This document shows positions 14,109 through 28,988 of a stretch of 39,706 bases of DNA, one piece after another (the first letter of the stretch is position 1; each line of letters begins with the position of its first letter). The stretch comes from Myxococcales bacterium. Lineage in GTDB: Bacteria > Lernaellota > Lernaellaia > Lernaellales > Lernaellaceae. The notes below the pieces were generated by a model. That model saw nothing but the letters and a program-made list of their open reading frames with translations, was not told where the DNA came from and searched no databases. The position numbers and the translations under genes are program-made. The stretch covers positions 1 through 39,706 of the forward strand of contig JAAYVF010000093.1 in NCBI GenBank assembly GCA_012517325.1, written 5' to 3'.

Positions 14109-15035
14109 ATGACTGGTACAAAAGCTGCCGAAATCACCCGCCGGGACTTCCTTCGCGGCACTCTGGCCCTGACCGGCGCCGCGCTTCTGGCGAAACCGAA
14201 CCTCGCGTTATCGGCCGACGAGAACGTACTACCGGTGGAATTTCACGGCCCGTGGGGCGTGGCTTTCGATCCCGACGGCAATCTCTACATCTCCGACCCC
14301 GGCCGTTACGGCATCCGGGTTTTTTCTCCCGACGGCCGGGAACTGCGCCGGTTCGGCAAGCCCGGATCGGGTGAAGGTCATTTGAATTACCCGACCGGCC
14401 TGAGCTGGCGCGACGGCCTGCTTTATATCTGCGACACCAACAACGGCCGCATCGCCGTGACCGACCAGGAAGGCAACCACCAACGCCATTTCGGTAGCCT
14501 GGGCATCACCACGGCCCGCCTGGCCATGCCCAACGGCGTCTGGGCCGGGTCGCGGTGGATCTGGGTCGCCAATACGCGCGGCCACGTGTTGCAAAGGTAT
14601 TCGCCGAAGGACGGCCGGCTGGAAAGTGCGTTCGGCCGCCTGGGCGATGAAAAAACGCTGCCGGAAGCGGGTTCGATCGATTACCTGTTGCGGCAACCGA
14701 CCGCCGTGATTGGCGACGATCAAGGCAGAATATTTCTGCTCGATTCCAAGCACGCGCGGCTGCTGGCGCTCGATGAGGAAGGCCGCTTTCGGTGGGAAAG
14801 CAAGGCGGCGTTCGGCGGCGTCGCGTTGTCGCGTCCGCAGGGCCTGGCTTACGCCGACGGCGCCCTGTATCTGGCCGATACCGGCAATCACCGGATCCTC
14901 AAGCTCGACGGCGAGGGCCGGGCGGTGGATCAAATGACCGGCGTGCACGAGCCCTATGGTCTGGCGGCGGCGGGCGGCAAGCTCGCGGTCGCGCAGTTCA
15001 AGGACCGCGTCGTGCGCCTGATGGATGTCTTTTGA
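14109..15035 (+). CDS. Tat-exported NHL-repeat protein
   Basis: A 308-residue protein with a twin-arginine signal (TRRDFLRG at about residues 10-17, then a hydrophobic stretch ending near LALSA). The mature part is made of NHL/six-bladed propeller repeats, each with the pattern PxGVAFDPDGNLYISDPGxxxIxVF; at least five copies are visible (e.g. GLSWRDGLLYICDTNNGRI, GLAYADGALYLADTGNHRI). NHL propellers bind proteins or small ligands and are generally not redox-active. Tat export suggests folding or cofactor insertion in the cytoplasm, and fits a periplasmic partner of the electron-transfer complex encoded downstream. Its TGA shares bases with the next gene's ATG (TGATG). Confidence 0.85.
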   Translation: MTGTKAAEITRRDFLRGTLALTGAALLAKPNLALSADENVLPVEFHGPWGVAFDPDGNLYISDPGRYGIRVFSPDGRELRRFGKPGSGEGHLNYPTGLSWRDGLLYICDTNNGRIAVTDQEGNHQRHFGSLGITTARLAMPNGVWAGSRWIWVANTRGHVLQRYSPKDGRLESAFGRLGDEKTLPEAGSIDYLLRQPTAVIGDDQGRIFLLDSKHARLLALDEEGRFRWESKAAFGGVALSRPQGLAYADGALYLADTGNHRILKLDGEGRAVDQMTGVHEPYGLAAAGGKLAVAQFKDRVVRLMDVF

Positions 15036-15358
15036 TGGAAGCGATGCTGACGCAACTGACGGCGGCGTTTCTGATCGGCGGGTGGCTGTTTGCCCTGCTT
15101 TATTCGCGCCGCAAGGCCCGGCGCGGCGTTATCGTGCGCCCGCTGACCTCCGCCGCCGACCCGCTGGGCTGGCTCCAGGCGGAGTTCGTCGTCCGGATCG
15201 ACGACGGCCGCGAGGTCGTCGCGCGGGCCACCGGCTGCGTGCATTGCCAGGGCGGCCTAGGGCCGGGGCGGCGCGTCGGCTTGCTGCGCGACCGGCAGGG
15301 ATTCGTGGTTTTGCAAACCGATCACCGGCGCCCGGCGCCCGCGAACGCGAGAACCTGA
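15035..15358 (+). CDS. small single-pass membrane protein
   Basis: A 107-residue protein with one N-terminal transmembrane segment (about residues 7-25), a basic stop-transfer cluster (SRRKARRG) and a small, probably beta-rich cytoplasmic domain. The domain contains one CVHC motif, too little on its own for an Fe-S cluster and lacking the following His of a c-type haem site. I recognise no family. The start overlaps the NHL stop, and its own TGA overlaps the ATG of the transporter gene, so it sits in a chain of translationally coupled genes. It may be an accessory subunit of the transporter or the respiratory complex. Confidence 0.65.
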   Translation: MEAMLTQLTAAFLIGGWLFALLYSRRKARRGVIVRPLTSAADPLGWLQAEFVVRIDDGREVVARATGCVHCQGGLGPGRRVGLLRDRQGFVVLQTDHRRPAPANART

Positions 15359-17034
15359 TGGCGATCCTGGGCTACATCACGCTGACGATTTTTCTGACGG
15401 CGATGGTCCTGACCTTGCTGCGCAAGATCAATCTGCCGGTGCAGACGGTGCTGGTTCTGGTGGCGCTGGTGTGCCTGGCGCTCGGCGCGGTGGTCAAGGG
15501 CGCGCTCGAGGGTTGGCAGGCGGTGCTTTCGCTGCCGGCCGAGATGATGGGCGGCATCATTCTGCATCCGGTGACGGCGCTCCTGGCCGGCCTCTTCATG
15601 GCCGGCGCGCTGTCGGCGACCGGCGGCTTCGACGCCTTCCGGGTGCTGATCGGCAAGCTGCAAAAAACGCCGCTCGGCCTCGCCGGCACGGTCGTCATCC
15701 TGATTCAACTGCCGATGCTCGCCAGCCTGCCGTGCGGCCGCATTCTCGCCGCCGCGCTGCTGCCGCTCCTGTTCGCCTTCGGCTCCGAGGGCGGCATGAA
15801 CCTGCTGACCAAGTCGCAGCTCATCGTGCTGATCGGCGCCTTCGCCAGCAACGCCTTCGGTTCCTGCGGCCCCAGCCCGATCGGCGGCGTCGGCCAGATC
15901 GGCGAGGGCTTCCTGGGCAGCTATTTCCCGACGGCGGCCGACGGCATTCTGCGGGCGCCGCAGGCGTTCGCCTTGATGCTGGGCACCGCGCTGACCGCCG
16001 TGTTTCTGAAACTGATCACCCAGCGGCTGTACCCCAACGACTGCTCGCTGCGCGAAAAGAAGGAAGGAGCCGGCGCCGCCGTGGCCGCCGCCAAGGCGCC
16101 GCTGACCGGCTATTTCGCGCTGGTGATTTTTTTCGCGTCGCTCGCGGTAGCGATTTTCCAGCCGCTCGGCAAGGTGCCGGTGCAGACGGTGCTGGTGGTG
16201 GCCGGCGTGCTGATCATCGTCATCGGCCAGGCTCGGCTCGAAGACCTGATGGCGGGCATCATCCTGCTGCCGGTGACCGCGATGATCGCCGGCTTCATGG
16301 CGGCCGGCGCGCTGGCGGCGACGGGCGGGTTCGACGCCCTGGGCCAGGTGCTGTCGCTGTTCGCCAAGGTGCCGCTGCTCGGCGTCGCGGGCATGCTGGC
16401 GATCTTCGTGCAGATCCAGACGATGATTCCGCTGTCGTGCAGCCGCATCCTGACCGCCGCGCTGGTGCCGGTGCTGTTTTTGTTCGGCCCGGCGGCCTAC
16501 GGTTTCCTGACCTGGGAACAACTCGCGGTCGTGATGGCCGCGTATATGATCAACGCGACGACCAGCTGCGGGCCGAGTCCGCTCGGCGGCGGCGGCATGA
16601 TGGGCGAGGGCCAGATGCGCGTCGAAAGCGGCTACATCAAGGGCGCCTACACGTTCGCCTCGATGGCGGTGATGGCGCCGCTGGCCGCCGTTTATATGAA
16701 ATTTCTCAATCTGGCCAGATTCCCCGCCGCCGACCAGGCGTTCCAGGCCAACCTTTGGGCGCTGCTGGGTTACGCGGTGCTGATCCTGGGCGCCAACGGC
16801 GCGGCGATCTGGCTGATGAGCCGGGTGGCGGCGCCGGGCGACGGCGGTTATCGCCGGCAGGTGATCGGGTTCGTCGCCGCCGGCGCGCTGGGCGGGTTGG
16901 TCCTGGCGTTGTCGGTGTTCGGGTTCCGGTTCGGCGCGGCTTTCCAGGGGGCCTTCGGTGGCGCGGTCGCCGCGGTGTGGATCGCGTACATGGTGCCCCG
17001 CCGCCTGTTGCCGGAACCGGCGGCGTTCGTCTGA
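15358..17034 (+). CDS. internally duplicated polytopic transporter
   Basis: A 558-residue, very hydrophobic protein with about 12-14 membrane segments. It is built from two similar halves: half one has PVQTVLVL, GGIILHPVTALLAG, AGALSATGGFDAF, CGRILAAAL and SCGPSPIGGVGQIGEG; half two has PVQTVLVV, AGIILLPVTAMIAG, AGALAATGGFDAL, CSRILTAAL and SCGPSPLGGGGMMGEG, in the same order. Two extra segments follow at the C-terminus. Duplicated Gly/Ser/Pro-rich re-entrant-like motifs are a hallmark of the ion-transporter superfamily of carboxylate and cation carriers, so a role in importing or exchanging fumarate, succinate or related acids is a reasonable inference from the flavoprotein genes of the same operon. 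I cannot name the family. Its ATG overlaps the preceding stop. Confidence 0.75.
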   Translation: MAILGYITLTIFLTAMVLTLLRKINLPVQTVLVLVALVCLALGAVVKGALEGWQAVLSLPAEMMGGIILHPVTALLAGLFMAGALSATGGFDAFRVLIGKLQKTPLGLAGTVVILIQLPMLASLPCGRILAAALLPLLFAFGSEGGMNLLTKSQLIVLIGAFASNAFGSCGPSPIGGVGQIGEGFLGSYFPTAADGILRAPQAFALMLGTALTAVFLKLITQRLYPNDCSLREKKEGAGAAVAAAKAPLTGYFALVIFFASLAVAIFQPLGKVPVQTVLVVAGVLIIVIGQARLEDLMAGIILLPVTAMIAGFMAAGALAATGGFDALGQVLSLFAKVPLLGVAGMLAIFVQIQTMIPLSCSRILTAALVPVLFLFGPAAYGFLTWEQLAVVMAAYMINATTSCGPSPLGGGGMMGEGQMRVESGYIKGAYTFASMAVMAPLAAVYMKFLNLARFPAADQAFQANLWALLGYAVLILGANGAAIWLMSRVAAPGDGGYRRQVIGFVAAGALGGLVLALSVFGFRFGAAFQGAFGGAVAAVWIAYMVPRRLLPEPAAFV

Positions 17035-17048
17035 TGCGGAGGTAGTCC

Positions 17049-17201
17049 ATGCTGGGAATGGCGAGTTTTGCCTTGGGCGGCGTGGTTTCGGGCCTGCTGA
17101 TCGCCTGGAGCATGGACTGGCGGTCGCCCAAGGAATTGTTGCAAGGGGCGTTGGGCGGATTGGCGGTCGGGATCGGGATGTCGCTGCTTTTGCCGATGTG
17201 A
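17049..17201 (+). CDS. 50-residue two-helix membrane protein
   Basis: A short gene with a strong ribosome-binding site (GGAGGT, 6 bases before ATG). The predicted peptide starts MLGMASFALGGVVSGLLIAW, followed by a charged turn (DWRSPKELL) and a second hydrophobic, Gly-rich helix ending in LLLPM. It fills the only gap in this part of the operon: 14 bp after the transporter stop and 6 bp before the ferredoxin start. Gly-zipper-like spacing suggests packing against another membrane subunit, either the transporter or the NrfD-like protein. No family recognised. Confidence 0.65.
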   Translation: MLGMASFALGGVVSGLLIAWSMDWRSPKELLQGALGGLAVGIGMSLLLPM

Positions 17202-17207
17202 GGAACG

Positions 17208-17768
17208 ATGGCGGACGAGAAGACCGGTAACATTCACAAACGCGATGACGGCACGCAACCGATTTCGCTGCCGGGCATCCGCCGTTTCCAATTTTTCTCG
17301 AACCTGCGCGACCGCTCGCTGACCAAGAACCTCAACCGCCTGGCGATGCTCGGCATCGGGGCGAGCCTGGCCTTCGACGTGGTCAAGCCGATCGCCGGCG
17401 ACGCGCCGCAAACCATTTACTGCTACGAATGCCGCGCCTGTTACGCGACGCAGGACAAGTGCCCGGCGGGGATCGCTTATCAGGCCGAGCTCAACGTCGC
17501 CACGCGCGTCGGCGACCACGCCCGGTTTCTGCGCGCCGGCGGCATGAAGTGCGTCCGCTGCGGCGGCTGCGTAAGCTTTTGCGTGATCAACCTCGACCTG
17601 CCGCGAATTTTTTCGCGCGGCCAGCAAAAGGTGCTGCAGGCGATCGAGGCCGGCGAAATCCCGCGCGGGCGCGTCGAAACGGCGCTGGAAAACGGGCTGA
17701 TCGGCCGCGAGTTCATCGATCGGGTCGCCGCCTGGTTGGCGAAAAACGGGAAGGACGTCACCGCATGA
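17208..17768 (+). CDS. dicluster 4Fe-4S ferredoxin-like protein
   Basis: A 186-residue protein with two four-Cys motifs: Cys72, 75, 78 and 85 (CYECRACYATQDKC) and Cys115, 118, 121 and 125 (CVRCGGCVSFC). The first has a longer third spacing than a standard ferredoxin, and the second is followed by Val rather than Pro. A moderately hydrophobic stretch at residues 44-62 could be a membrane-contacting helix. It resembles HdrC/GlpC-like electron-transfer proteins that link soluble enzymes to membrane partners. Its stop overlaps the start of the FMN-domain gene (ATGA). The likely role is electron transfer on the cytoplasmic side between the FMN/Fe-S membrane protein and another subunit; this is inferred from context. 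Confidence 0.8.
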   Translation: MADEKTGNIHKRDDGTQPISLPGIRRFQFFSNLRDRSLTKNLNRLAMLGIGASLAFDVVKPIAGDAPQTIYCYECRACYATQDKCPAGIAYQAELNVATRVGDHARFLRAGGMKCVRCGGCVSFCVINLDLPRIFSRGQQKVLQAIEAGEIPRGRVETALENGLIGREFIDRVAAWLAKNGKDVTA

Positions 17769-18799
17769 AACCGCGGCTGGACCATTGGCTGGAGGATCGG
17801 GTGACGCGCGGTCTGCGGCTGTCGCTGCTCGCCGCCGGCCTGGCGCTGCTGTTTCCTCCCGGGCGGCTGTACGCGCTGGCGATCCTCGGCCTCTTGCTGT
17901 TCATTTACGGCGTCCGGCAATGGCGGCGCGGCGGCTGGCGGTATGCGCTGCCGGTCGGCCTGCTGGCCGCGGCGGGTTTGGGCCTGCTGTTGTGGTCGAT
18001 TCACGACCGGCGGGCCGTCGAGGATTACCTGGCGCTCCACCGACCGCTCTCCCTCGAGTTCGTGCCCGACGGGGTTTACCAGGGCAGCGCGCCGGGCAAC
18101 AACGGCGACATCCACGTTCAGGTCCGGGTGGCCCACGGCCGCATTCAACAGGCGGCGGTGCTCGATCACCGCGAGGCCGTCTACGCGTTCGACGAGGTGC
18201 TGGCGCGTTTGCCGGGTCAGCGCAAGATCGACCTGACGGATCTGTCCGGCTTCGTTTTTCGCAATGAACGCTCGCTCATCGGCCTGCAAGCCGCGTTGGA
18301 AAAAGCCGTACTGCCGGCGATTTTCGATGCGCCGCAATTGTCGCGCGCCGCGCGGGCGGTCTTTTTCGTCGCCAGCAACCGCGGCGGACGGATCACCGCC
18401 AATTCGTTGGCCGTCCTGTTCATCGTGCTGCTGGCGTTCGATTACACCTTCGGGCCGACCCTGCGGCCGGGATTGGGACAATCGCTCAATTGTTACAACT
18501 GCCAGGCCTGCGTCGGCGTGTGCCCGGTGAAGATGGTCGCCGGCGATCCGTTCCCGATGACGATGGTGCTGATGGCGCGGCTGGGCAACCTCGATCGCGT
18601 GGTGGAGCTTTCGAAATACTGCGTCGGGTGCGGCAAGTGCGCCGCCAAGTGCCCGGTCGGCAATTCCGGCCCGTCGGTGGCCAGCGCGGCCTACCTCGTC
18701 TGGCGCGAACGGCGCCGCCGCGAGGAATCGACCCGCGATCCGGAAATCCGCGCCCTGACCGGCGAACCACCTTCGCGGGAAGGAGGCGCCGATGCCTGA
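17765..18799 (+). CDS. NosR/RnfG-like FMN-domain and dicluster Fe-S membrane protein
   Basis: A 344-residue protein with three hydrophobic helices (about 18-32, 35-50, 60-80), an FMN-binding-type domain at about 95-187 (DGVYQGSAPGNNGDI is the entry motif), another helix at about 211-231, and two 4Fe-4S motifs, Cys243/246/249/253 and Cys286/289/292/296. The order, extracytoplasmic FMN-type domain, membrane helix, then cytoplasmic Fe-S clusters, is that of NosR/CprC-like proteins, which move electrons across the membrane. The covalent flavinylation motif (S/D-GAT) expected at about residue 161 reads SGFVF, so the Thr is missing and FMN, if bound, is not phosphothreonine-linked. It overlaps the next gene by 8 bp. 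Confidence 0.8.
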   Translation: MKPRLDHWLEDRVTRGLRLSLLAAGLALLFPPGRLYALAILGLLLFIYGVRQWRRGGWRYALPVGLLAAAGLGLLLWSIHDRRAVEDYLALHRPLSLEFVPDGVYQGSAPGNNGDIHVQVRVAHGRIQQAAVLDHREAVYAFDEVLARLPGQRKIDLTDLSGFVFRNERSLIGLQAALEKAVLPAIFDAPQLSRAARAVFFVASNRGGRITANSLAVLFIVLLAFDYTFGPTLRPGLGQSLNCYNCQACVGVCPVKMVAGDPFPMTMVLMARLGNLDRVVELSKYCVGCGKCAAKCPVGNSGPSVASAAYLVWRERRRREESTRDPEIRALTGEPPSREGGADA

Positions 18800-19394
18800 G
18801 AGCAAAGTGCGCTACGGTTTTTTAATCGATCTGCGCAAATGCATCGGCTGCCAGACCTGCGAGGTCACCTGCAAGATGGAAAACGACGTCCATCTCGGCG
18901 TCTGGCGCTCGTGGGTCAAGAAGGTCGAAAAGGGCGAGTATCCGCGGACGACCCGCAAGTTCCTGCCGCTGTTGTGCAACAACTGCGAAAACCCGATCTG
19001 CGTGACCGTCTGCCCGGTGCGCGCCAACCGCCGGCGGCCCGACGGCATCGTGACGTTCGACCCGCATCGTTGCGTCGGCTGTCGCTACTGTATGGCGGCC
19101 TGTCCCTATCAGGTGCGCTACATCCATCCGCTCAAGCGCATCGTCGAAAAATGCAATTGGTGCCACCACCGCATCGACGCGGGCCTGCAACCGGCGTGCG
19201 TGGAAAACTGCCCGACCGGCGCGCGGGTTTTCGGCGATCTGCGCGACCCGCAAAGCGAAATCAGTCGCCTGCTGGCCAAGCACGATACCGCCGTTCTGCT
19301 GCCCGAGATGGGCACGAAGCCGCAGGTATACTACATCGACTTCGACGAGCAGGTGTTCGCCACGAAACAACCGCTGATCTGGAAGTGGAGGTAG
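18792..19394 (+). CDS. four-cluster ferredoxin subunit, DmsB/PsrB/QrcC type
   Basis: A 200-residue electron-transfer subunit with sixteen Cys in four complete motifs: 17/20/23/27, 62/65/70/74, 94/97/100/104 and 121/124/136/140. This is the arrangement of DmsB, PsrB, NrfC and QrcC, which wire a large periplasmic subunit to an NrfD-like membrane protein. All four sites have four Cys, so four 4Fe-4S clusters are predicted. There is no signal peptide; such subunits are normally exported bound to a Tat-signal partner, here the molybdopterin-fold protein two genes downstream. The ATG at 18792 lies inside the end of the preceding gene. Confidence 0.9.
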   Translation: MPESKVRYGFLIDLRKCIGCQTCEVTCKMENDVHLGVWRSWVKKVEKGEYPRTTRKFLPLLCNNCENPICVTVCPVRANRRRPDGIVTFDPHRCVGCRYCMAACPYQVRYIHPLKRIVEKCNWCHHRIDAGLQPACVENCPTGARVFGDLRDPQSEISRLLAKHDTAVLLPEMGTKPQVYYIDFDEQVFATKQPLIWKWR

Positions 19395-19395
19395 G

Positions 19396-20307
19396 TTGGA
19401 AACCGTCGCCACCCGGTTGTTGTACGACGTGCCGCACCAGACGACCTTTGCCTGGCTGATCTCGATCTATTTCTACTTCACCGGATTGTCGGCGGGCAGC
19501 TTCGTGGTTTCCACCATGAGTTACGGTTTCGGCCTGACGAAGTACAAGCCGATCAGCCGGATCGCGGTCATCACCGCCACCGCCTGCCTGGGGATCGCGC
19601 CGATCGCGCTGCTGATGCAGGTCGGCTGGCCGATCCGTTCGATCTGGAACCACTTCACCTACCTGAATTTCACCAGCCCGATGACCTACGGGGCGTTTCT
19701 GCTGGTCGGTTACCCGGTGGTCTGCATTTTCTACGCGCTGTTCATGTTCCGCGGCGATCTGAAGCGCACCAAGCTGCTGGGGATGATCGGCATTCCCACC
19801 GCGATCGCCACGCACGGCTACACCGGGTTCATCCTGGCGTTCGGCAAGGCGCGCGCCTACTGGAACACCGCGCTGATGCCGACGCTCTTCCTGGTCTCGG
19901 CCATCGTGTCCGGCCTGGCGCTGATGATCCTGCTGGTCATGCTGCTGTTCCGCTTCGTCTTTGCCGAGCGCAAGATTCCGGCCGACATCGTCGACGGGCT
20001 GGCCGGCCTGCTCGGCTGGGCGATCGTGGTCGATCTGTTCCTGACTTTCTGCGACATCGCCGTGCTGTCGATCAGCCACGAGGGCGCGCAGCGGATGGCC
20101 TGGCTGGTGCTCGGCGGCAGCTTCACGCCGCTGTTCGTGGTCGTGGAGAACCTGATCGGCAAGGTGCTGCCGCTGGTCGTTTGTTTCGTGCCGGCGTTGC
20201 GCAAACGGCACTGGGTGCTGGCCCTCGCGGCGGCCGGGGTGGTGATCGGCATCTTTTTCATGCGGTACGTGACCGTCTTCGGCGGTCAGGTGCTGCCGTT
20301 GATGTAG
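19396..20307 (+). CDS. NrfD/PsrC/QrcD-like membrane quinone subunit
   Basis: A 303-residue integral membrane protein with about eight helices, of the NrfD/PsrC superfamily that forms the quinone-reactive subunit of complex iron-sulfur enzymes. Family features include the N-terminal FAWLISIYFYFTGLSAGSFV segment, HFTYLNFTSPMTYGAFLL, and a conserved-looking His in SISHEG. The start is TTG at 19396, chosen because GGAGGT lies just upstream and the preceding stop is at 19394. It is shorter than ActC/QrcD proteins of about 400-450 residues and near the size of NrfD/PsrC. Gene order places it between the four-cluster subunit and the molybdopterin-fold subunit, as expected for one membrane complex. 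Confidence 0.9.
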   Translation: METVATRLLYDVPHQTTFAWLISIYFYFTGLSAGSFVVSTMSYGFGLTKYKPISRIAVITATACLGIAPIALLMQVGWPIRSIWNHFTYLNFTSPMTYGAFLLVGYPVVCIFYALFMFRGDLKRTKLLGMIGIPTAIATHGYTGFILAFGKARAYWNTALMPTLFLVSAIVSGLALMILLVMLLFRFVFAERKIPADIVDGLAGLLGWAIVVDLFLTFCDIAVLSISHEGAQRMAWLVLGGSFTPLFVVVENLIGKVLPLVVCFVPALRKRHWVLALAAAGVVIGIFFMRYVTVFGGQVLPLM

Positions 20308-20315
20308 GGGTTCGC

Positions 20316-22406
20316 ATGCGGATTACGCGTCGCCAATTCGTTTCCTGGGGCCTGGCCGCCGGCGCGGCGATCGGGGTCGAGGGAGTCGGCCACGCGTTTT
20401 TCGGCCACGTGATGCGCACCGCCACGCGCCGCGACGAACCGGTGCCGTCGGTCTGCCGGGCTTGCCCGGCCGGCTGCGGCATTGTCGGCTATTTGCGCGA
20501 CAAGACGCAGCTCACCGCGATTCTCGGCAATCCCGAGCACCCGGCCAGCCGCGGCAAGGTCTGCGCGCTCGCCCTGGCCGCGATCAATCTGCACTATCAC
20601 CCCGAGCGCCTCTGGCAGGCCCGCCGCCGCAACGGGCAAACGCTCGAAACCACCGCCGCGCTCGACGAGGCGCAGCGCCAATTGGCCGGGCTGCTGGCCG
20701 AGGGCGCCACGGTGGTGATCGACACCTGGGACGAGCAGGCGGCGCACGCCGATTTCCTGGCGCCGCTCGGCGTCCGAGGGAAATTGATCGGCCGCGAGGC
20801 GTTGGCCGGCGCGAACCGGCAGGCGGTCATGCGCGAAATCTGGGGCGCCGAGGTCCGGCCCGACATCGAAGCCGCCGATCTGCTGCTGGTCTTCGACGAC
20901 CGGCCGCTCGACGAGGGGCCGCGCTTCATTCAAGACGCCCGGCGCATCGTCGAGGGGCAGGTCGACCGCGGCTTGAAGGTGGTGGTGTTCGATCCGCACC
21001 TCGCCAACACCGGCGGCAAGGCCGATCTGTGGGTGCCGATCCGGCCCGGCACGGCGCGCGTCGCGGCGTTGGCTCTGGTGCGCCACACGCTGGAGCACTG
21101 GAAGCTCGACGCGACGATCCGTATGGGCGGCCAATACCTGCCGCTTTATTTTCTGGCCGAGGCGCTCGACGCCTACGACTTCGAATATGCCGCGCACCGC
21201 TGCGGCGTGGATCCCGAATTGCTGCGGCAGGCCGCCGACCTGCTGCTCGAATCCCATCGCCCGGCGACCATGGCCGGCGACGGCGTTTTCGACGGCGCGG
21301 ACGCGAAAGCGGCGTATGCTTCCATCGCCTTGATCGATCTGCTGTTCGGCGAGCGTCAGATCCCGGTCATTCCGCGGCCGCGTTGGGTGCCCGAGGCGCA
21401 GGCGCTGACCGCGGTGGAGGCCGAGGAGTTCTACCGCGAACTGGAATTCGGCGAGAAGCGGCGAAAGATCATCCTGATCACCCATCGCGCCAATCCGGTT
21501 TACGAGCGGGGCGGCCGCCTGGAAAGCGCGCTGGTCGACGGCGCGGCGGCCTATCATCTGGCGATCAGTCCGCTGCCCAACGAAACGGCCGGGGTCGCCG
21601 ATCTCGTCATTCCCGAGGCATTGCCGCTGGAGTGCGAGGGCCGCGTCTGGCTGACTGCCTACGTTCCGACGCCGACGTATGCGTTGCAGCAGCCGATCGC
21701 GCCGCCGCCCAAGGGCGTGTTGCCGGCCAAAGCCGTCTTCGCTGCCCTGACCGGCGCCGAACCGCCGGCGAACGCCGCGGCGGAAAACGACCTCCGCTGG
21801 GTGCGCGATCGGTTGGGCGTGCAGGCGTTTTTCGAAATCGCCCAGGGGATTTTCGCCGGCGATGTGAACTTCAAACCCGAACTGGTTTACACCCCGTCGC
21901 TGGCCTACTTCAAACAGCTCGCGCCTTTGGAAACGACCCCGGCGCACGGCGGGCGGCTGGAACTGCTCCTGCACGGCGGTCCGACGACCAACCGGACCAG
22001 CGCGCAAGCCAAGTGGCTGGCGGAAATCGATCACGCCGCCAAGCTGTTCGTGAATCCGGACGACGCCCGGCGCCTGCGCGTCCGCACCGGCGACGCGGTG
22101 CGTTTGCTGGCCGAGGAAAGCCGGCCCGCGCCCGCGCGACCGGTCGAGGTGAAGGTGGAAGTGTTCGTTTCGGGCGGCATCCGTCCCGGCTGCGCGGCGT
22201 TGAATATCGGCCAGGGCCATCCGGCCTCCGGGCTGCTGGCGCTGGCCAGCCGCTTTTCCGCCCGGCTCGACCCGGACATGAAACTGATCTGGTGGGAAGA
22301 CCAACGCAACGGCGTCAACCTGTCGCCGCTGACCACCGCCGACCCCGCGCCGGAAGGCGACCGCCTGCTGCGGCCGCTCGTCCGGCTGCGCGTCAGGAGG
22401 GCCTGA
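20316..22406 (+). CDS. molybdopterin-oxidoreductase-fold protein, probably cofactor-free
   Basis: A 696-residue member of the DMSO-reductase superfamily with a Tat signal (TRRQFVSWGLAAG). Cys47, 50, 54 and 83 bind one 4Fe-4S cluster. Family landmarks further on are FDPHLANTGGKADLWVPIRPGT, THRANPVYE, ETAGVADLVIPEALPLECEGR, and the C-terminal barrel with NPDDARRLRVRTGDAV and LNIGQGHPASG. It is short for the family (usually 750-1000), and the segment where a Ser, Cys or Sec normally binds Mo or W (about residues 150-180) contains none of these. QrcB and ActB are established relatives without active molybdenum. A structural and electron-relay role is therefore more likely than catalysis. The ATG at 20316 is 8 bp after the NrfD-like stop. 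Confidence 0.88.
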   Translation: MRITRRQFVSWGLAAGAAIGVEGVGHAFFGHVMRTATRRDEPVPSVCRACPAGCGIVGYLRDKTQLTAILGNPEHPASRGKVCALALAAINLHYHPERLWQARRRNGQTLETTAALDEAQRQLAGLLAEGATVVIDTWDEQAAHADFLAPLGVRGKLIGREALAGANRQAVMREIWGAEVRPDIEAADLLLVFDDRPLDEGPRFIQDARRIVEGQVDRGLKVVVFDPHLANTGGKADLWVPIRPGTARVAALALVRHTLEHWKLDATIRMGGQYLPLYFLAEALDAYDFEYAAHRCGVDPELLRQAADLLLESHRPATMAGDGVFDGADAKAAYASIALIDLLFGERQIPVIPRPRWVPEAQALTAVEAEEFYRELEFGEKRRKIILITHRANPVYERGGRLESALVDGAAAYHLAISPLPNETAGVADLVIPEALPLECEGRVWLTAYVPTPTYALQQPIAPPPKGVLPAKAVFAALTGAEPPANAAAENDLRWVRDRLGVQAFFEIAQGIFAGDVNFKPELVYTPSLAYFKQLAPLETTPAHGGRLELLLHGGPTTNRTSAQAKWLAEIDHAAKLFVNPDDARRLRVRTGDAVRLLAEESRPAPARPVEVKVEVFVSGGIRPGCAALNIGQGHPASGLLALASRFSARLDPDMKLIWWEDQRNGVNLSPLTTADPAPEGDRLLRPLVRLRVRRA

Positions 22407-22407
22407 C

Positions 22408-23352
22408 ATGAAGGGATTGGCGCGAGTGTTCGGCTGGCTCGAGCATTTTCTGATTACGGCGCCGCCGCTTTACGTCGGCCTGGGCATCGGCGTCGCCGGA
22501 TTGCTGGGTTTTCTCGGCATGGTGACCTACAATCAATCCTCGTTCTTCTGCCTGAAATGCCACGCGCCGGCCGGCGTTTTCGTCAGTTTCGCCGAGGACT
22601 CGACCTCGCACTCGCCCTATAAAAAAGACAAGGAACGCTGTCTGACCTGTCACACCGACAAGGATTTCTACCGGGTGGCCGGGAAATGGGTGAGCCGCTC
22701 GGTGGCCGATTTCGACGACGCGACCGGCGCCGAAACGACGCGCCTGCCGGACCCCGAGCCCGGCTATACCGACGACGAATGCCTGCGCTGCCATTTCGAC
22801 ATTCTCAAGCGCGACGAGGCCGATAAGCTCAAACTGCCGGAAAAGGTCGCCAAGATCGGCCTGCGTTTTTCGCACCGCAACCACTTCTGGATGAAGGATT
22901 ATCCGCGGCCGGCGCGCGCCCAGCTCGAACGCCTGAGGGCGATGGCGCTGCCCACCGAAGAGCAGAAAACCGAACGCGATTTCCTGCTGCGGGCGCAACT
23001 CGGCTGGTGCGGCCAGTGCCACGACCGCGAACAGCCGACGGCGGACGGCAAGACGCGACCGGATCGCTCAATCAACTACTTTTCGATCAACCCGATGCGC
23101 TGCATCGGCTGCCACCCCGACGCGACCGCGCGTCGCCATCCGGGGACGATTCACCTGGCGTTGCCGCGCGAGGAACAATGCCGTCGTTGCCACAGCGGCA
23201 CTTTCCACGGGCGCTTCGCGGTGTTCCGCGCCGAATGCGCGGGTGAGGACAAACGAGACTGCCGGCGTTGCCATCCCGGTTGGCAACCGGAAGCGGCGGA
23301 GGAGTCCGGCGTCGCCGGACCGGTGGCCGCCGCGCCGGCGCCGGAAGGGTAG
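22408..23352 (+). CDS. membrane-anchored heptaheme cytochrome c
   Basis: A 314-residue protein with a single N-terminal membrane anchor (about 19-40) and seven CXXCH haem sites, at Cys48, 78, 125, 201, 232, 258 and 285 (first Cys of each). Further His such as in FSHRNHFW are likely distal ligands. The first site lies just after the anchor, as in NapC/NirT-type and QrcA-type cytochromes. QrcA has six haems and ActA five, so seven is different from both. It should sit on the periplasmic side and exchange electrons with soluble cytochromes or with the MopB-fold subunit. It starts 1 bp after the preceding stop. The C-terminal tail is a Pro/Ala-rich spacer. Confidence 0.9.
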   Translation: MKGLARVFGWLEHFLITAPPLYVGLGIGVAGLLGFLGMVTYNQSSFFCLKCHAPAGVFVSFAEDSTSHSPYKKDKERCLTCHTDKDFYRVAGKWVSRSVADFDDATGAETTRLPDPEPGYTDDECLRCHFDILKRDEADKLKLPEKVAKIGLRFSHRNHFWMKDYPRPARAQLERLRAMALPTEEQKTERDFLLRAQLGWCGQCHDREQPTADGKTRPDRSINYFSINPMRCIGCHPDATARRHPGTIHLALPREEQCRRCHSGTFHGRFAVFRAECAGEDKRDCRRCHPGWQPEAAEESGVAGPVAAAPAPEG

Positions 23353-23360
23353 GAGGCGAC

Positions 23361-23843
23361 ATGGCATCGATCACCGAACAATCGCCGCCGCTGTCCACGG
23401 AGAAACGACGGACGGTCGATCAACTGCTGACCATCAAGGAGCCGCCGGTGGCGCGCTTCCGGTTGCTCAGCCGCGGGATGGAGCCGTACCACCGGCTGTA
23501 CCTGCCCAGCGGCGACGAGATCACCGGCGACCAGGCCTGCCTGGCCTGCGGTAATTGCGTCGATTCGTGCCCGGTGCTACGGCGCGAACCGGCGCGACTG
23601 GGCGTGACCGACCGCCGCACCAGCTTTGCGTTGGAAACGACGGTCGCCGAGGATTGCGAATTGTGTTTTTCGTGCCTGCTGGCCTGCCCGCAGGTAGACA
23701 CGGAAATCAAGGATTACGTGGTGGACGAGAAGATCCCGGAAACGATCCCCCAAAGCAAACTGCTGCGCCGGTTCGACAACTACTTCATGGTCATCGCGGC
23801 GCTGCTACTGGGCATCGCGCTCGGCGTTTTCATCGCCCGATAG
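23361..23843 (+). CDS. tail-anchored HdrC-like dicluster Fe-S protein
   Basis: A 160-residue protein with two 4Fe-4S motifs, Cys60/63/66/70 (CLACGNCVDSCP) and Cys99/102/105/109 (CELCFSCLLACP), and one C-terminal transmembrane helix (about 141-159) ending in a lone Arg. The Fe-S domain is therefore cytoplasmic and membrane-tethered. It looks like HdrC or the C-terminal half of GlpC-type proteins. Its position directly before the two Frd-like subunits suggests that it docks them to the membrane complex in place of FrdC/D, an inference from gene order. The ATG at 23361 is preceded by AGGAGG, which decides it over upstream in-frame codons. Confidence 0.85.
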   Translation: MASITEQSPPLSTEKRRTVDQLLTIKEPPVARFRLLSRGMEPYHRLYLPSGDEITGDQACLACGNCVDSCPVLRREPARLGVTDRRTSFALETTVAEDCELCFSCLLACPQVDTEIKDYVVDEKIPETIPQSKLLRRFDNYFMVIAALLLGIALGVFIAR

Positions 23844-23857
23844 AGGAGGGAGACAGG

Positions 23858-24589
23858 ATGCAGACGTTACCGCCGGAAACCGCGCGGATTTACCTCATGG
23901 GCAAGGAATATCTGGTGCCCGATTCGTTGACCATTCAAAAGGCCTTCGAGTTCGCCGGCTACCAATGGCTGCGCGGCTGCGGCTGCCGCGGCGGCATCTG
24001 CGGCGCCTGCGCGACCGTCTACCGGTTCGCGGGTTCGTACAAGATCGAGGTCGGGCTGGCCTGCCAGACGGTCGTCCAGGACGGCATGTACATCGCCCAG
24101 ATCCCGTTCTTCCCGGCGCCGAAGGCGACCTACGACGTGGAGCGGATCGAGGCGACCACGCAGGTCGTTCATTCGTTGTACCCGGAGATCTTCAAGTGCA
24201 TGGGTTGCAACACCTGTACGAAAAGCTGCCCGATGGAAATCCGGGTCATGGAGTACATCAGCGCGACCATCCGCGGCGATCTGCGCGAGGCGGCCCGGCT
24301 GTCGTTCGACTGCGTCATGTGCGGCCTCTGCGCGGCGCGTTGCCCTGGCGAACTCAAGCAGTATCACATCGCCGAACTCGTCCGCCGGCTGGTGGGCGTG
24401 CACCTGCAGCCGCGCAGCCGCCACCTGGCGGCGCAAACCGCGCGCATCCGCGCCGGCGAATTCGAAAAGGCGCTGGACGAGGTGACGGCGCTGAGCGACG
24501 CCGAGTTGCGGCAGCGCTACGTCGCGCGCGAGGAACAGCCGCAGGAAGATGATCCGAACTGGAAACCGAAGGACCCGACGTATCTGTAG
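23858..24589 (+). CDS. fumarate reductase/succinate dehydrogenase Fe-S subunit
   Basis: A 243-residue subunit with an N-terminal plant-type 2Fe-2S domain (Cys41, 43, 48, 51 and 69; RGCGCRGGICGACAT) and a C-terminal domain with two four-Cys motifs, Cys114/117/120/124 and Cys152/155/158/162. Classical SdhB/FrdB proteins have 2Fe-2S, 4Fe-4S and 3Fe-4S centres; here the last site also has a full four-Cys motif (CVMCGLCAARCP). It should pass electrons between the flavoprotein encoded next and the membrane. A strong GGAGGGAG site precedes the ATG. Residues after about 190 are a charged helical tail. Confidence 0.88.
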   Translation: MQTLPPETARIYLMGKEYLVPDSLTIQKAFEFAGYQWLRGCGCRGGICGACATVYRFAGSYKIEVGLACQTVVQDGMYIAQIPFFPAPKATYDVERIEATTQVVHSLYPEIFKCMGCNTCTKSCPMEIRVMEYISATIRGDLREAARLSFDCVMCGLCAARCPGELKQYHIAELVRRLVGVHLQPRSRHLAAQTARIRAGEFEKALDEVTALSDAELRQRYVAREEQPQEDDPNWKPKDPTYL

Positions 24590-24598
24590 GAGGCCGCC

Positions 24599-26260
24599 GT
24601 GGGCTATACCCAGGAATTGCTCGAGCTGATTAAAAAAGTCGAAGCGACCCGTCCGGCCCGCATTCAGCGTGCCAAGGAGGGTAAGGACTTCCCGGCGCTG
24701 TCGCTGGCCGAACGCGCCGAACGATTGAAGCACCACCCGGACTACCAGGCGGATGGGCGTCGGCCGCTCGTTGTCGGTCCCAGCAAGGGCTACGCGATCT
24801 GCCACGAGATGGCTGCCCTGTTCGAGGCCCGGCCGCTGCTCGATCCCGATCGCTTCGCCGTGGACAAACCCGATTACACCACCGACGTTCTGGTGCTGGG
24901 CGGCGGTGGCGCAGGCACCAGCGCGGCGTTACTCGCGGCCGAGCAAGGGCTGCGCGTAATTCTCGCCACCAAGCTGCGGCACGGCGACGCCAACACCATG
25001 ATGGCCGAGGGCGGCATCCAGGCGGCGACGAAAGTCGGGTGGGACAGCCCGTATTTCCATTACCTCGACGTGATCGGCGGCGGTCACTTCAAAAACGTGC
25101 CGGAACTGGTGCGGACGTTGGTCACCGAGGCGCCGCTGGTGATCGAGTGGCTCGAGGGTCTGGGCTGCCTGCTGTCGAAGGAGCCGCACGACCCGCAGGG
25201 CACCTTGCGCACGGCGCACGGCGGCGGCACCTGCCGCAAGCGGATGCACTTCGCGGCCGACATCACCGGCGCGGAAATCATGCGCACCCTGCGCGACGAG
25301 GCCCGCAACCGCGCCGACCGGATCGAGGTGCTGGAGTTCAATCCGGCGATCGAGCTGATTCTGGACGACAAGGGCCGCTGCATGGGCGCGGTGCTGCTCA
25401 ACCTCGAGACGAAGCAGACCTACGTCGTCCACGCCAAGGCCGTGGTGCTGGCCACCGGCGGCTCGGGCCGCCTGCACATCAAGGGCTTCATGACCACCAA
25501 TCACTACGGCGCGACCGCCGACGGGTTGGTGATCGCCTACCGCGCGGGCGTGCCCGTCTGCTTCTTGCACGCCGTGCAATACCACCCGACCGGCGTCGTC
25601 TTTCCGGAACAGGCCGAGGGCATCCTGATCACCGAAAAGGTGCGCGGCTTCGGCGCCCACGTGCTGAACGTCGAGGGCGAGCAGTTCGTCTTCGAGCGCG
25701 AGCCGCGCGATGTCGAGGCGGCGAGCATCATTCGCGAATGCACGGTGGTCGGGAAGGGCGTGCCGACGCCGACCGGCAAGTTCGGCGTCTGGCTCGACAG
25801 CCCGATGATCGAGACCATGGTCGGCCCGGGCACCGTCGAGCGCGAGTTCCCCGGCAAGTTCATCCTGTACAAGCGCTTCGGCATCGACATCGGCAAGGTG
25901 CCGATGCTCGTCTACCCGACGCTGCATTATCAAAACGGCGGCGTGACCTACAATCGACATTGCGAGACCAACGTGCCGGGTTTGTTCGCGGCGGGCGAGG
26001 TGACCGGCGGCGTCCACGGCGAGAATCGCCTGATGGGCAATTCGCTGCTCGACGTGTGCGTGTTCGGCCGGATCGCGGGGCAGACGGCGGCGGCTTACGT
26101 CAAGGAAAAGTACGCACCGGGCATCCCGAACCTCGAGCACGTGCGGCGGTTCATCGCCGAACGGAAGGAAGCCGGCATTGACAGCGCGGTCGCCAGCCCG
26201 ATCCTGCTGCCCGACTACGTCAACCAGCAGGTGAAGGATAAGCGGCTCCCCGGCCTGTAG
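24599..26260 (+). CDS. FAD flavoprotein of fumarate reductase/succinate dehydrogenase type
   Basis: A 553-residue flavoprotein. After an unusual 90-residue N-terminal extension comes the FAD-binding LVLGGGGAGTSAALLAAEQG, then AEGGIQAAT, DITGAEIMRTL and the active-site segments with His329 (QYHPTG), Arg349 (KVRGFG), His443 (HYQNGG) and Arg477 (GENRLMGNSLL). These match residues that bind the dicarboxylate and donate the proton in FrdA/SdhA. The His that covalently holds FAD in SdhA/FrdA (SHTVAAQGG) is Asn132 here (ANTMMAEGG), so FAD is probably noncovalent, as in soluble relatives. Fumarate reduction or succinate oxidation is likely, but related dehydrogenations remain possible. GTG start, 9 bp after the Fe-S subunit. 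Last gene of the operon. Confidence 0.88.
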   Translation: MGYTQELLELIKKVEATRPARIQRAKEGKDFPALSLAERAERLKHHPDYQADGRRPLVVGPSKGYAICHEMAALFEARPLLDPDRFAVDKPDYTTDVLVLGGGGAGTSAALLAAEQGLRVILATKLRHGDANTMMAEGGIQAATKVGWDSPYFHYLDVIGGGHFKNVPELVRTLVTEAPLVIEWLEGLGCLLSKEPHDPQGTLRTAHGGGTCRKRMHFAADITGAEIMRTLRDEARNRADRIEVLEFNPAIELILDDKGRCMGAVLLNLETKQTYVVHAKAVVLATGGSGRLHIKGFMTTNHYGATADGLVIAYRAGVPVCFLHAVQYHPTGVVFPEQAEGILITEKVRGFGAHVLNVEGEQFVFEREPRDVEAASIIRECTVVGKGVPTPTGKFGVWLDSPMIETMVGPGTVEREFPGKFILYKRFGIDIGKVPMLVYPTLHYQNGGVTYNRHCETNVPGLFAAGEVTGGVHGENRLMGNSLLDVCVFGRIAGQTAAAYVKEKYAPGIPNLEHVRRFIAERKEAGIDSAVASPILLPDYVNQQVKDKRLPGL

Positions 26261-26261
26261 G

Positions 26262-27824
26262 CTATTTGCCGATTTTCAGGAGCGCCTTGCGGAGCACCTC
26301 TTTATCGACGCCGCGGATCAATTCCTGGTTGTCCGCCAGGGCGGCGAACTCCTCGGTGATGCTCAATTCGGCGGCTAGGTTGCTGTTCTCGGCCAGGATC
26401 TGGCTCGCCTTGTCCGCGTTGGCTTCCTTCTTGATCGTCGCCGGGTCCAGGCCCGCCTTGGTCACGAAATCTTCCCAGTAGCTCGACAGCGGATTTTCCG
26501 CGCGGCCCTTCAAGTAGTCCCAGACCTTGTCGGGCTTGGTATTCAGGATAGCGATCACCCGCAGCATCTCCTCGACTTCCATCACACCCATCTGCGCGGC
26601 GATTTCGCCGTTTTGGATCAGCGTGAACGGCAGCAGGCGCACGTGAACGCCGAGCTTCTTGATTTCCGGCGCGGCCAGGAGGTCCGACAAATCCAGCAGG
26701 GAACGCAGAGCGTTTTGCGAAACCGGGGTGAAGAACACGTCGAGGGTTTTCGGAGCGGCCTTGCGGTCGAGATAGAAATTGCCGCCGACCTTCGGCGAAA
26801 GCAGGTAGCCGTCGCCGGCTTTCACCACGTGCGGTTCGATGACCTTGAAGTTCGACCGTTTCGCCAGGTCGCCGGGGAAGAAATAGGCGGGCAACAGTTT
26901 GATGCCGTATTTCGCGATGAATTTTTTGCCGGCGGCGCTGTTGTAATCGATCTTTTCCACCTTGGCGCCCGGATAGAGCTGCAAGGTCTGCTTGAGAATC
27001 AGGTCCATCCGACTGGTGTCGATGGCCTTCGCGTCGTAGACGATCGTGTGGGTGAACGGCGACTTGTCCACCATCTCCGGCGGCAGCGGCGGCGCGTTGT
27101 CCTGGCCACTGCAGGAGCCCTTGGCGCTGCCGTCCGACCGCGAGAGGGTTTCCGGCGGGTTGTCGCAAACCGGAGCCTTTTTGCCGCCCATCGCTTTGCA
27201 GATCGCCTCGAACAATTCGCGGCTGTTGATGCCGCCCGCATAGGGTGCGCCGTTGATCAGAATGGTCGGGCTGGCGTGAACGTTCAGTTTGTTGGTTTCC
27301 GCCAGATGTTCGCGCAAGAGCCGCTCGGCGGTGCCGTCGGTCCGGCATTTTTCGATGGCTTCGACCGACAAGCCCAGGCTTTTCGCCGTCGCCTGCCAAT
27401 CCTTGCCGCTTTCGTTCCAGCGAACGATGAAATCCAGTTGCTTCTCAGGGGCGGCCTGACCGGCGCAGATCTGCACCTGGTCTTTTTCGACTTCCCGCGC
27501 GCCGTGCAAGCTTTCGATCTTGCCGTCCGACGACTGGCTGATAATGAAAACCAGCCGCAAATCAAACAGATCTTTCAACGCCTGGGCGACTTTATGCGTA
27601 ACGGTTTCCGCCGGGATGCCGTAAGGGCATTCGCTCATGACGTAAAGGGACACGAGCGGACGGTCGCTGGTCGGGATTTCCCGCGGGGCCGGGCCCTCGG
27701 CGGGCGGCGGGGCGACCGCCGGAGTCGGGCTGGTTTCGGTCGGGGTCGTTTTGCCGCAGCCGACCGCAAACAGCAGCAGCGGAAGGACCGCCAGCGCGAG
27801 GATCGAAAAACGGAATTGCCGCAT
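26262..27824 (-). CDS. two-domain thioredoxin-fold lipoprotein
   Basis: A 520-residue predicted lipoprotein (LLLFAVGC, lipid Cys23), followed by a Pro/Ala/Thr-rich linker (about 25-50) and a thioredoxin-fold domain at about 55-220. The active-site-like motif is SECPYG with a single Cys66, so it is not a CXXC; the cis-Pro loop is SPTILING (Pro186). Other Cys at 120, 160, 209 and 220 could form disulfides. A second domain at about 250-500 begins with TIVYDAKAID and may be a diverged thioredoxin-like or helical domain. This pattern recalls GILT/DsbA-like thiol proteins of the periplasm; the role is unknown. It converges on the flavoprotein gene with only 1 bp between stop codons. Confidence 0.8.
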   Translation of the reverse strand: MRQFRFSILALAVLPLLLFAVGCGKTTPTETSPTPAVAPPPAEGPAPREIPTSDRPLVSLYVMSECPYGIPAETVTHKVAQALKDLFDLRLVFIISQSSDGKIESLHGAREVEKDQVQICAGQAAPEKQLDFIVRWNESGKDWQATAKSLGLSVEAIEKCRTDGTAERLLREHLAETNKLNVHASPTILINGAPYAGGINSRELFEAICKAMGGKKAPVCDNPPETLSRSDGSAKGSCSGQDNAPPLPPEMVDKSPFTHTIVYDAKAIDTSRMDLILKQTLQLYPGAKVEKIDYNSAAGKKFIAKYGIKLLPAYFFPGDLAKRSNFKVIEPHVVKAGDGYLLSPKVGGNFYLDRKAAPKTLDVFFTPVSQNALRSLLDLSDLLAAPEIKKLGVHVRLLPFTLIQNGEIAAQMGVMEVEEMLRVIAILNTKPDKVWDYLKGRAENPLSSYWEDFVTKAGLDPATIKKEANADKASQILAENSNLAAELSITEEFAALADNQELIRGVDKEVLRKALLKIGK

Positions 27825-27979: not shown

Positions 27980-28076
27980 ACACATACCATTGCAGATTGA
28001 TCAGGGGACATTACCAATATTACGGTACTCTTTTTCCGCCGTTTCATGGGGACGGCCCTAGCCAGGAGGAAAGACG

Positions 28077-28406
28077 ATGTCTGACATGACCGTGAACCAG
28101 GTGTTTGAAAACATTACCGCGAAAATGGCCGCCGATCCGGGCAAAGTGGCCAACATCAAGTCGGTTTATCAGTTCAACGTCACCGGCGACGGCGGCGGCG
28201 AATGGTACGTGGATCTCACCGGCGACGCTCCCAAGGTCGCGGCGGGCGCCTCGCCGACGCCTCATTGCACGGTCACCGTTTCCGACGCCGATTTCATCGC
28301 GATCTACACCGGCAGCCTGAATGCCCAGATGGCTTTCATGACCGGCAAAGTGAAGATCAGCGGCGACATGGGCCTGGCGATGAAACTGGGGAAAATCCTC
28401 GGGTAG
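28077..28406 (+). CDS. SCP2 sterol-binding domain protein
   Basis: A 109-residue single-domain protein of the SCP2 family, which has a hydrophobic pocket for lipids or acyl chains. Visible family features: VFENITAKMAADP at the start, a FNVTGDGGGEWYVDLT strand pair, the SDADFIAIYTGSLNAQMAFMTGKVKISGDMGLAMKL segment that closes the cavity. No signal peptide, so it is cytoplasmic. The preceding AGGAGG is a strong ribosome-binding site, and a hairpin with a T-tract follows, so this is probably a single-gene unit. The ligand cannot be predicted. Confidence 0.9.
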   Translation: MSDMTVNQVFENITAKMAADPGKVANIKSVYQFNVTGDGGGEWYVDLTGDAPKVAAGASPTPHCTVTVSDADFIAIYTGSLNAQMAFMTGKVKISGDMGLAMKLGKILG

Positions 28407-28430
28407 TTTTTTCGTTTACGGCATACAGGG

Positions 28431-28462
28431 GGGGGAAGCGAACGCTTCTTCCCTTTGTTTTT
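28431..28462 (+). terminator. rho-independent terminator after the SCP2 gene
   Basis: GGGAAG pairs with CTTCCC (alternatively GAAGC with GCTTC) around a GAAC-containing loop, and the stem is followed by TTTGTTTTT ending at 28462. It starts about 25 bases after the SCP2 stop and is the clearest intrinsic terminator in the window. Confidence 0.7.
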
Positions 28463-28574
28463 AAAGGCTTGACCGGGCATCCGGTCCGGCTCAGATTGAA
28501 CCGGAAACGCGTTGCGACAATCGCGAACGGGGAAACGGCGGTCGGTTGCGGACAAGGTTTGCGAGGAGGGGCGG

Positions 28575-28988
28575 ATGAGAAGCCATACCGAATATTTGTG
28601 GTTCCAAACCAAGCAGCGGCGCGAGTACATCAATATCACCGACCGGATTGAAAAAGCCGTCGAGGAATCCGGCATCCAGGAAGGAATGGTGCTGGTCAGC
28701 GCCATGCACATCACCGCCGGCATTTGGGTCAACGACGCCGAACTGGGAATCATCGCCGATATCGATGAAATGATTGAAAACCTCGCCCCAGTCGGCAAAA
28801 ACTACCGGCACCATCGCACGGGCGAGGATAACGGCGATGCGCACCTGAAAAGCATTCTCGTCCACAATCAAGTCATCCTGCCGATCACCGAAGGCCGCCT
28901 GGATCTCGGCCCCTGGCAACAGGTTTATTATTGCGAATTCGACGGCCGACGCCGCAAGCGGGTCGTCGTCAAGGCGATCGGCGAATAG
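28575..28988 (+). CDS. YjbQ/UPF0047 family protein
   Basis: A 137-residue protein of the YjbQ family. The conserved [15 protein letters not shown]-like [14 protein letters not shown] and [16 protein letters not shown] segments are present, with His residues that cluster in the trimeric fold of known structures. Members have been linked to thiamin phosphate synthase-like activity in one study of the family, but the physiological role is not settled. GAGGAGGGG precedes the ATG at 28575, which fixes the start; an upstream in-frame GC-rich stretch is not coding. Confidence 0.9.

Follow-up and report, generated by a model that had tools for sequence, protein, structure and literature searches.

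Gene content of the locus

The window analysed here, i.e. the whole 39,706 nt stretch of contig JAAYVF010000093.1 (assembly GCA_012517325.1, phylum Lernaellota), contains an ORF with an ATG start (15358–17034, +) that encodes a 558 aa membrane protein. The protein was identified from the ORF and its translation, AlphaFold2 and Foldseek results, and 13 relatives at 43–82% identity as a membrane protein of the ion-transporter (IT) fold carrying Cys4 motifs, and its gene (hereafter the transporter gene, after its fold) is single-copy in its own genome. Upstream lies a gene for a TAT-exported NHL beta-propeller (14109–15035, +), a neighbour kept in Lernaellota and in family f174 of a second phylum, where the beta-propeller is also found upstream of the transporter and shares ∼34% identity. 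The start of the transporter gene is overlapped by the gene for a 107 aa protein with one predicted membrane helix and only a weak Pfam match (15035–15358, +). In a second-phylum genome (G126), two response-regulator receiver-domain genes (locus L009, 609–1434) were observed just upstream of the transporter.

The transporter ends in a glycine-rich two-helix hairpin (residues 495–545; 16840–16992, +) that is homologous to the product of the next gene, a 50 aa mini-protein (17049–17201, +) forming a related two-helix hairpin. In 13 other genomes, a mini ORF distinct from the transporter gene was matched by positions 494–552 of the transporter profile, and the free-standing mini gene is kept beside Fe-S genes in both phyla. 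It is followed by FeS_A (17208–17768, +), a conserved partner with one predicted transmembrane helix and two [4Fe-4S]-type Cys motifs, and by an FMN_bind/[4Fe-4S] protein (17765–18799, +) composed of helices, an FMN_bind-like domain, a further helix and two [4Fe-4S] motifs. The FMN_bind profile (PF04205; cut-off 22 bits) matched two second-phylum relatives of the latter at 39.3 and 36.8 bits. The FMN-attachment motif S/TGAT is present in the second phylum as VTGAT or VSGAT and is absent, together with its flavin-attachment threonine, from all four Lernaellota copies, which carry GFVFRN instead, such that covalent FMN has possibly been lost from the Lernaellota proteins.

The remaining genes of the run begin with a TtrB/DsrO-like [4Fe-4S] ferredoxin subunit (18792–19394, +), the start of a Lernaellota extension, followed by an NrfD-type membrane subunit (19396–20307, +), a QrcB/PhsA-like molybdopterin-type subunit with a TAT signal (20316–22406, +), a membrane-anchored multihaem cytochrome c (22408–23352, +), FeS_B with two [4Fe-4S] motifs and a C-terminal helix (23361–23843, +), an SdhB/HdrC-like protein with one [2Fe-2S] and two [4Fe-4S] motifs (23858–24589, +), and an SdhA/FrdA/TfrA-like flavoprotein (24599–26260, +). 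Taken by itself, the composite cluster at 18792–26260 makes an unusual respiratory complex. On the opposite strand, an ORF of lipoprotein-like type (26262–27824, −) bears a CPYG motif resembling those of thioredoxin/DsbA and is kept beside the cluster in a related genome (G006). The small genes at 28062–28985, putatively SCP2-like and YjbQ-like, are conserved in G006 as well.

Internal duplication of the membrane protein

A first-pass annotation of this DNA had described the 558 aa protein as two direct repeats bearing the same motifs in the same order, about 255 residues apart. All of the listed pairs are present twice and in that order: PVQTVLV (residues 27–33 and 274–280), GIIL[HL]PVTA (66–74 and 300–308), AGALxATGGFDA (82–93 and 316–327), CGRIL at 126–130 with its counterpart CSRIL at 361–365, and SCGPSP[IL]GG (169–177 and 403–411). 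The spacing was measured at 234–247 residues rather than ∼255.

The two halves share 42% identity over 173 aa by BLASTP (96 bits, E = 4e-28). Their Smith-Waterman score was 366, ∼18 standard deviations above the 77 ± 16 obtained from shuffles that were kept within 10-residue windows and therefore preserved local composition, and the likeness of the halves is thus not a product of shared hydrophobicity. Half-half similarity was 76–124 bits in 14 of 14 family members, compared with no more than 36 bits in 17 ordinary IT-fold (CitMHS-profile) transporters from the same phylum. We conclude that the duplication is real and that a likeness of this degree between halves is unusual for the IT fold.

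The half alignment, predicted helices and loop charges delimit a first repeat at residues 5–226 (15370–16035, +) and a second at residues 251–457 (16108–16728, +), the latter predicted to be inverted in the membrane. The term "direct repeats" is consequently correct for the sequence and incorrect for the membrane, where the model and the loop charges give an inverted pair. The first-pass proposal of a duplicated core bearing two symmetric substrate loops is supported by the half alignment and the predicted fold.

A new family with the elevator-transporter fold

No match to the window protein was found in Pfam, NCBIfam or PHROGs, and PDB sequences likewise gave no match by phmmer or hmmsearch. 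A firm assignment to a family whose substrate is known, which would have spoken against the first-pass reading, was not obtained. Three relatives were identified in Lernaellota (66–82% identity) and ten in the second phylum, which was sampled as 14 genomes (∼60% identity in families f173 and f174, 43–45% in family f123), and together with the window protein these make up a family alignment of 14 rows from two phyla. A contig scan with a single-sequence query recovered only one relative. Two samples of 386 genomes contained no further true family member; a match in one genome (G374) was rejected as an MscS-like ORF.

The CitMHS profile (PF03600) touched six of the 14 members weakly, with a best E-value in the set of 8e-7 (an estimated ∼29 bits). 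Scanned singly, relatives scored 18.8–23.3 bits or gave no match, all below the Pfam cut-off of 31.9 bits, and the window protein gave no match to this profile. Comparison by hhalign of the 14-row alignment with small local DASS-, NhaD- and ArsB-like alignments returned nothing useful, the profiles being shallow (Neff ∼2).

An AlphaFold2 model of the window protein, built from the 14-row alignment, had a pLDDT of 73.8 and a pTM of 0.79. In each modelled repeat, three helices lead into an in-plane helix, which is followed by a re-entrant hairpin, a discontinuous helix and one more helix, giving five crossings plus the re-entrant hairpin per repeat, and three extra C-terminal helices follow the second repeat. 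Judged by positive charge, equivalent loops of the two repeats fall on opposite sides of the membrane. Structure prediction, which had been put forward as the means of checking for membrane inversion, did return repeats related by inversion, and the predicted topology places the N-terminus outside and the C-terminus inside, with hairpin 1 entering from the cytoplasmic side. Foldseek matched the model to VcINDY (including the fumarate- and malate-bound structures), ArsB, NaDC3, Pho90 and SiaQM with a probability of 1.00 and E-values down to 1e-5, and matches near probability 1 were confined to IT-fold structures. The outcome was the same for a second model, built for a relative with 44% identity (pLDDT 64), such that an inverted repeat with a re-entrant hairpin and a discontinuous helix in each half is predicted for two homologues. 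The TM-scores of these matches were only 0.4–0.6 and therefore establish the superfamily and not the family. The elevator-transporter fold of the IT superfamily is thus well supported for the 558 aa protein by these models, in line with the IT-superfamily members that the first-pass annotation had named for comparison.

A conserved redox gene module in two phyla

The transporter, mini, FeS_A and FMN/Fe-S genes adjoin one another both in Lernaellota and in a second-phylum genome of family f123 (G204), where the four-gene module stands alone and the next gene is uvrC-like. In another second-phylum genome (G196) the transporter gene precedes the remaining module genes by ∼12 kb within one run of same-strand ORFs, and no SdhA follows SdhB. 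Across 21 genomes from the two phyla, transporter and partners were both present in 13 and both absent in six, counts that rest on two phyla and are therefore not independent events. Of the two remaining genomes, G195 yielded the transporter but neither FeS_A nor the FMN/Fe-S protein, while G197 yielded the partners but not the transporter. Full-length homologues of FeS_A or of the FMN/Fe-S protein were not found elsewhere in samples of 386 genomes each.

The gap in G196 and the two discordant genomes are what would be expected were the protein simply another uncharacterised IT transporter, placed in this neighbourhood by chance through operon packing. We consider this very unlikely: the G195 scaffold contains runs of N and the G197 genome is 78% complete, presence and absence agree in all of the other genomes of both phyla, and a mini gene homologous to the C-terminus of the transporter lies beside the redox genes. 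The observed conservation supports a four-gene module of transporter-fold protein, mini-hairpin, Fe-S protein and FMN/Fe-S protein, and the linkage supports a flavin/iron-sulfur redox module whose integral-membrane subunit is the 558 aa protein. The coupling to respiratory genes proposed at first pass is upheld by this linkage, and the gene, whose absence from syntenic loci of related genomes would have spoken against that proposal, was present in them.

A pocket of four cysteines and two arginines

Cysteines 126, 170, 361 and 404 are invariant in 14 of 14 sequences, down to 43% identity, while all other cysteines vary; the arginines at the hairpin tips, Arg128 and Arg363, are likewise invariant in all 14. 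Two of the cysteines fall one to each hairpin tip and two fall one to each helix break. The tip of hairpin 1 is formed by Cys126-Gly127-Arg128 (CGR; 15733–15741, +), located by alignment and by a modelled helix break at 123–126 in the place of the first SNT motif of DASS proteins, and the tip of hairpin 2 by Cys361-Ser362-Arg363 (CSR; 16438–16446, +), in which Cys and Arg are the invariant positions. Tip 1 is CGR in all 14 sequences, and tip 2 is CSR in eight and CGR in six. Alignment and model place the breaks of the discontinuous helices at SCGPSPIGG in repeat 1 (residues 169–177; 15862–15888, +), which contains Cys170, and at SCGPSPLGG in repeat 2 (residues 403–411; 16564–16590, +), which contains Cys404. 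By fold and alignment, each of the four loops enclosing the IT substrate pocket contributes one invariant cysteine, with an inferred side-chain geometry.

The protein shares with the DASS/SLC13 transporters (VcINDY, LaINDY, NaDC, NaS1) its fold, two inverted repeats, a re-entrant hairpin and broken helix per repeat, and the places of the motif loops. In VcINDY the hairpin tips and helix breaks make up two clamshells, Na1 and Na2, with carboxylates held at the SNT tips (PMC9098524). Gap-free anchoring on the following LP/VP shows that the SNT positions are held here by C-G-R and C-S-R, so that both SNT motifs and the Asn residues for Na+ and carboxylate are lost. The window protein further differs from DASS/SLC13 members in that each of its four pocket loops has a cysteine, three additional helices follow at the C-terminus, the identity between halves is much higher, and the gene is linked to electron carriers. 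With ArsB/CitMHS-type proteins (PF03600) it shares the fold and, in six family members, a weak profile similarity; the sub-threshold scores given above and different pocket residues set it apart. The 558 aa protein represents a new family of the IT fold with a cysteine/arginine pocket.

One function compatible with the fold is Na+-independent anion exchange (e.g. of fumarate/succinate or another carboxylate pair) supplying the adjacent SdhA/FrdA-like enzyme, in which the tip arginines would take the place of Na+, a substitution made by basic residues in LaINDY, and the cysteines would be structural or substrate-tuning. Fumarate-bound VcINDY was among the top Foldseek matches and the CitMHS profile weakly matched six of the 14 members. 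The succinate exchanger LaINDY sets a precedent for the two invariant arginines, its Na+ sites being occupied by Arg159 and His392 (PMC7553777). Furthermore, the SdhA/FrdA-like gene lies in the same cluster, and one genome of Lernaellota appears in a published list of potential syntrophic propionate degraders (PMC13248872). However, the motifs that hold carboxylates are missing, four invariant cysteines are unexpected in a carboxylate exchanger, and the Fe-S and FMN genes stay with the transporter where the module stands alone (G204) or where SdhA is lacking after SdhB (G196). The first-pass suggestion of carboxylate transport or exchange is weakened on two counts, the replacement of SNT by CGR/CSR and the position of the SdhA/FrdA flavoprotein outside the second-phylum module, and we regard exchange as rather unlikely. 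A dedicated fumarate transporter was downgraded because the module exists without SdhA. Were exchange correct, the protein would still constitute a new IT family, with a pocket unlike those of the described DASS and ArsB members.

The cysteines could alternatively coordinate a transported thiophilic or redox-active cargo (a soft metal ion, a metalloid or a reduced sulfur compound) that is reduced or oxidised by the adjoining flavin and Fe-S proteins. The metalloid pump ArsB, one of the Foldseek matches, has the same fold, and its two hairpin tips and two helix breaks together enclose one small As(OH)3 pocket (PMC13381914). Flavinylated proteins also occur beside iron-uptake genes (PMC8238504), and the transporter has tetrathionate/thiosulfate-reductase-like neighbours in Lernaellota. 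However, ArsB holds its substrate by polar residues and hydrogen bonds, the loci covered contained no recognisable gene for metal resistance, metal uptake or a metal regulator, and two arginines disfavour cations. Transport of such a cargo is in our judgement unlikely.

A possible electron-relaying site

The positions of the four cysteines recall RnfA/RnfE, in which four iron-ligand cysteines lie at the breaks of four half-helices in two inverted subunits (PMC9588780). As in RnfA/RnfE and NqrD/NqrE, the window protein has four invariant cysteines, one per helix break, in two inverted units, as judged by sequence position and predicted breaks, and it has FMN_bind and Fe-S partners. It differs in fold and size, in combining in one polypeptide what RnfA and RnfE divide between two subunits, and in that the metal is putative here. 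No match to PF02508 (RnfA/RnfE, NqrD/NqrE) was found for the window protein, and its fold is that of the IT superfamily, placing it outside that family; the likeness concerns the arrangement and extends neither to fold nor to ancestry. True PF02508 genes occur elsewhere in the genome, and most module-bearing genomes own Rnf or Nqr, so the module is no simple replacement for them. A role as a general Rnf replacement was rejected accordingly, with both systems present in f123 and in most Lernaellota carriers, and f174 being without Rnf.

Our preferred reading, held tentatively and at somewhat less than even confidence, is that the IT-fold protein is the membrane subunit of the flavin/Fe-S redox module and bears an electron-relaying Cys4 site. 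The four thiols would ligate a metal or a small Fe-S centre, much as in RnfA/RnfE and NqrD/NqrE, and would thereby connect the cytoplasmic [4Fe-4S] domains of the neighbouring proteins electronically with the extracytoplasmic FMN_bind domain or the multihaem cytochrome. In Lernaellota the chain would be extended by the quinone-linked TtrB-NrfD-QrcB set and by the fumarate-reductase/succinate-dehydrogenase-like pair. The halves resemble each other more closely than do those of ordinary IT transporters, which is what a pseudo-symmetric shared site would require. Several points argue against a relay. By analogy with VcINDY, where the clamshells are separate sites, the cysteines may be too distant from one another for one metal. 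The FMN/Fe-S protein, with its own predicted helices, may move electrons alone, as NosR/PceC-like proteins may. The covalent-FMN motif is, as judged from the sequences, gone from all four Lernaellota copies, and the two invariant pocket arginines suit an anion.

To our knowledge, no IT-fold protein carrying a redox centre has been described, and a search of the open-access literature for an IT-fold electron carrier found none. Five membrane classes have been given for flavinylated electron-transfer systems, and the IT fold is absent from that list (PMC8238504). The window protein shares with those systems (NapH-like, MsrQ-like, PepSY, DsbD and RNF/NQR-like) the combination of an Fe-S carrier, an FMN_bind domain and a membrane protein, and differs in that its IT fold lies outside the five classes. 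Among the module proteins scanned, which covered part of the neighbouring genes, no Pfam matches to NapH, MsrQ, PepSY, DsbD or NqrB were found. It is possible, though doubtful enough that we put it forward with more reserve than the relay itself, that the module represents a sixth transmembrane electron-transfer class, in which an IT elevator transporter has become a redox subunit with a Cys4-metal site, evolved independently of RnfA/RnfE and NqrD/NqrE, and perhaps links the flow of electrons to the movement of ions or anions. Should the cysteines indeed hold a redox centre, a fold known from textbooks for solute transport would have become an electron carrier, and little-known phyla would have an independent solution for moving electrons across the membrane and perhaps a new pump driven by redox reactions.
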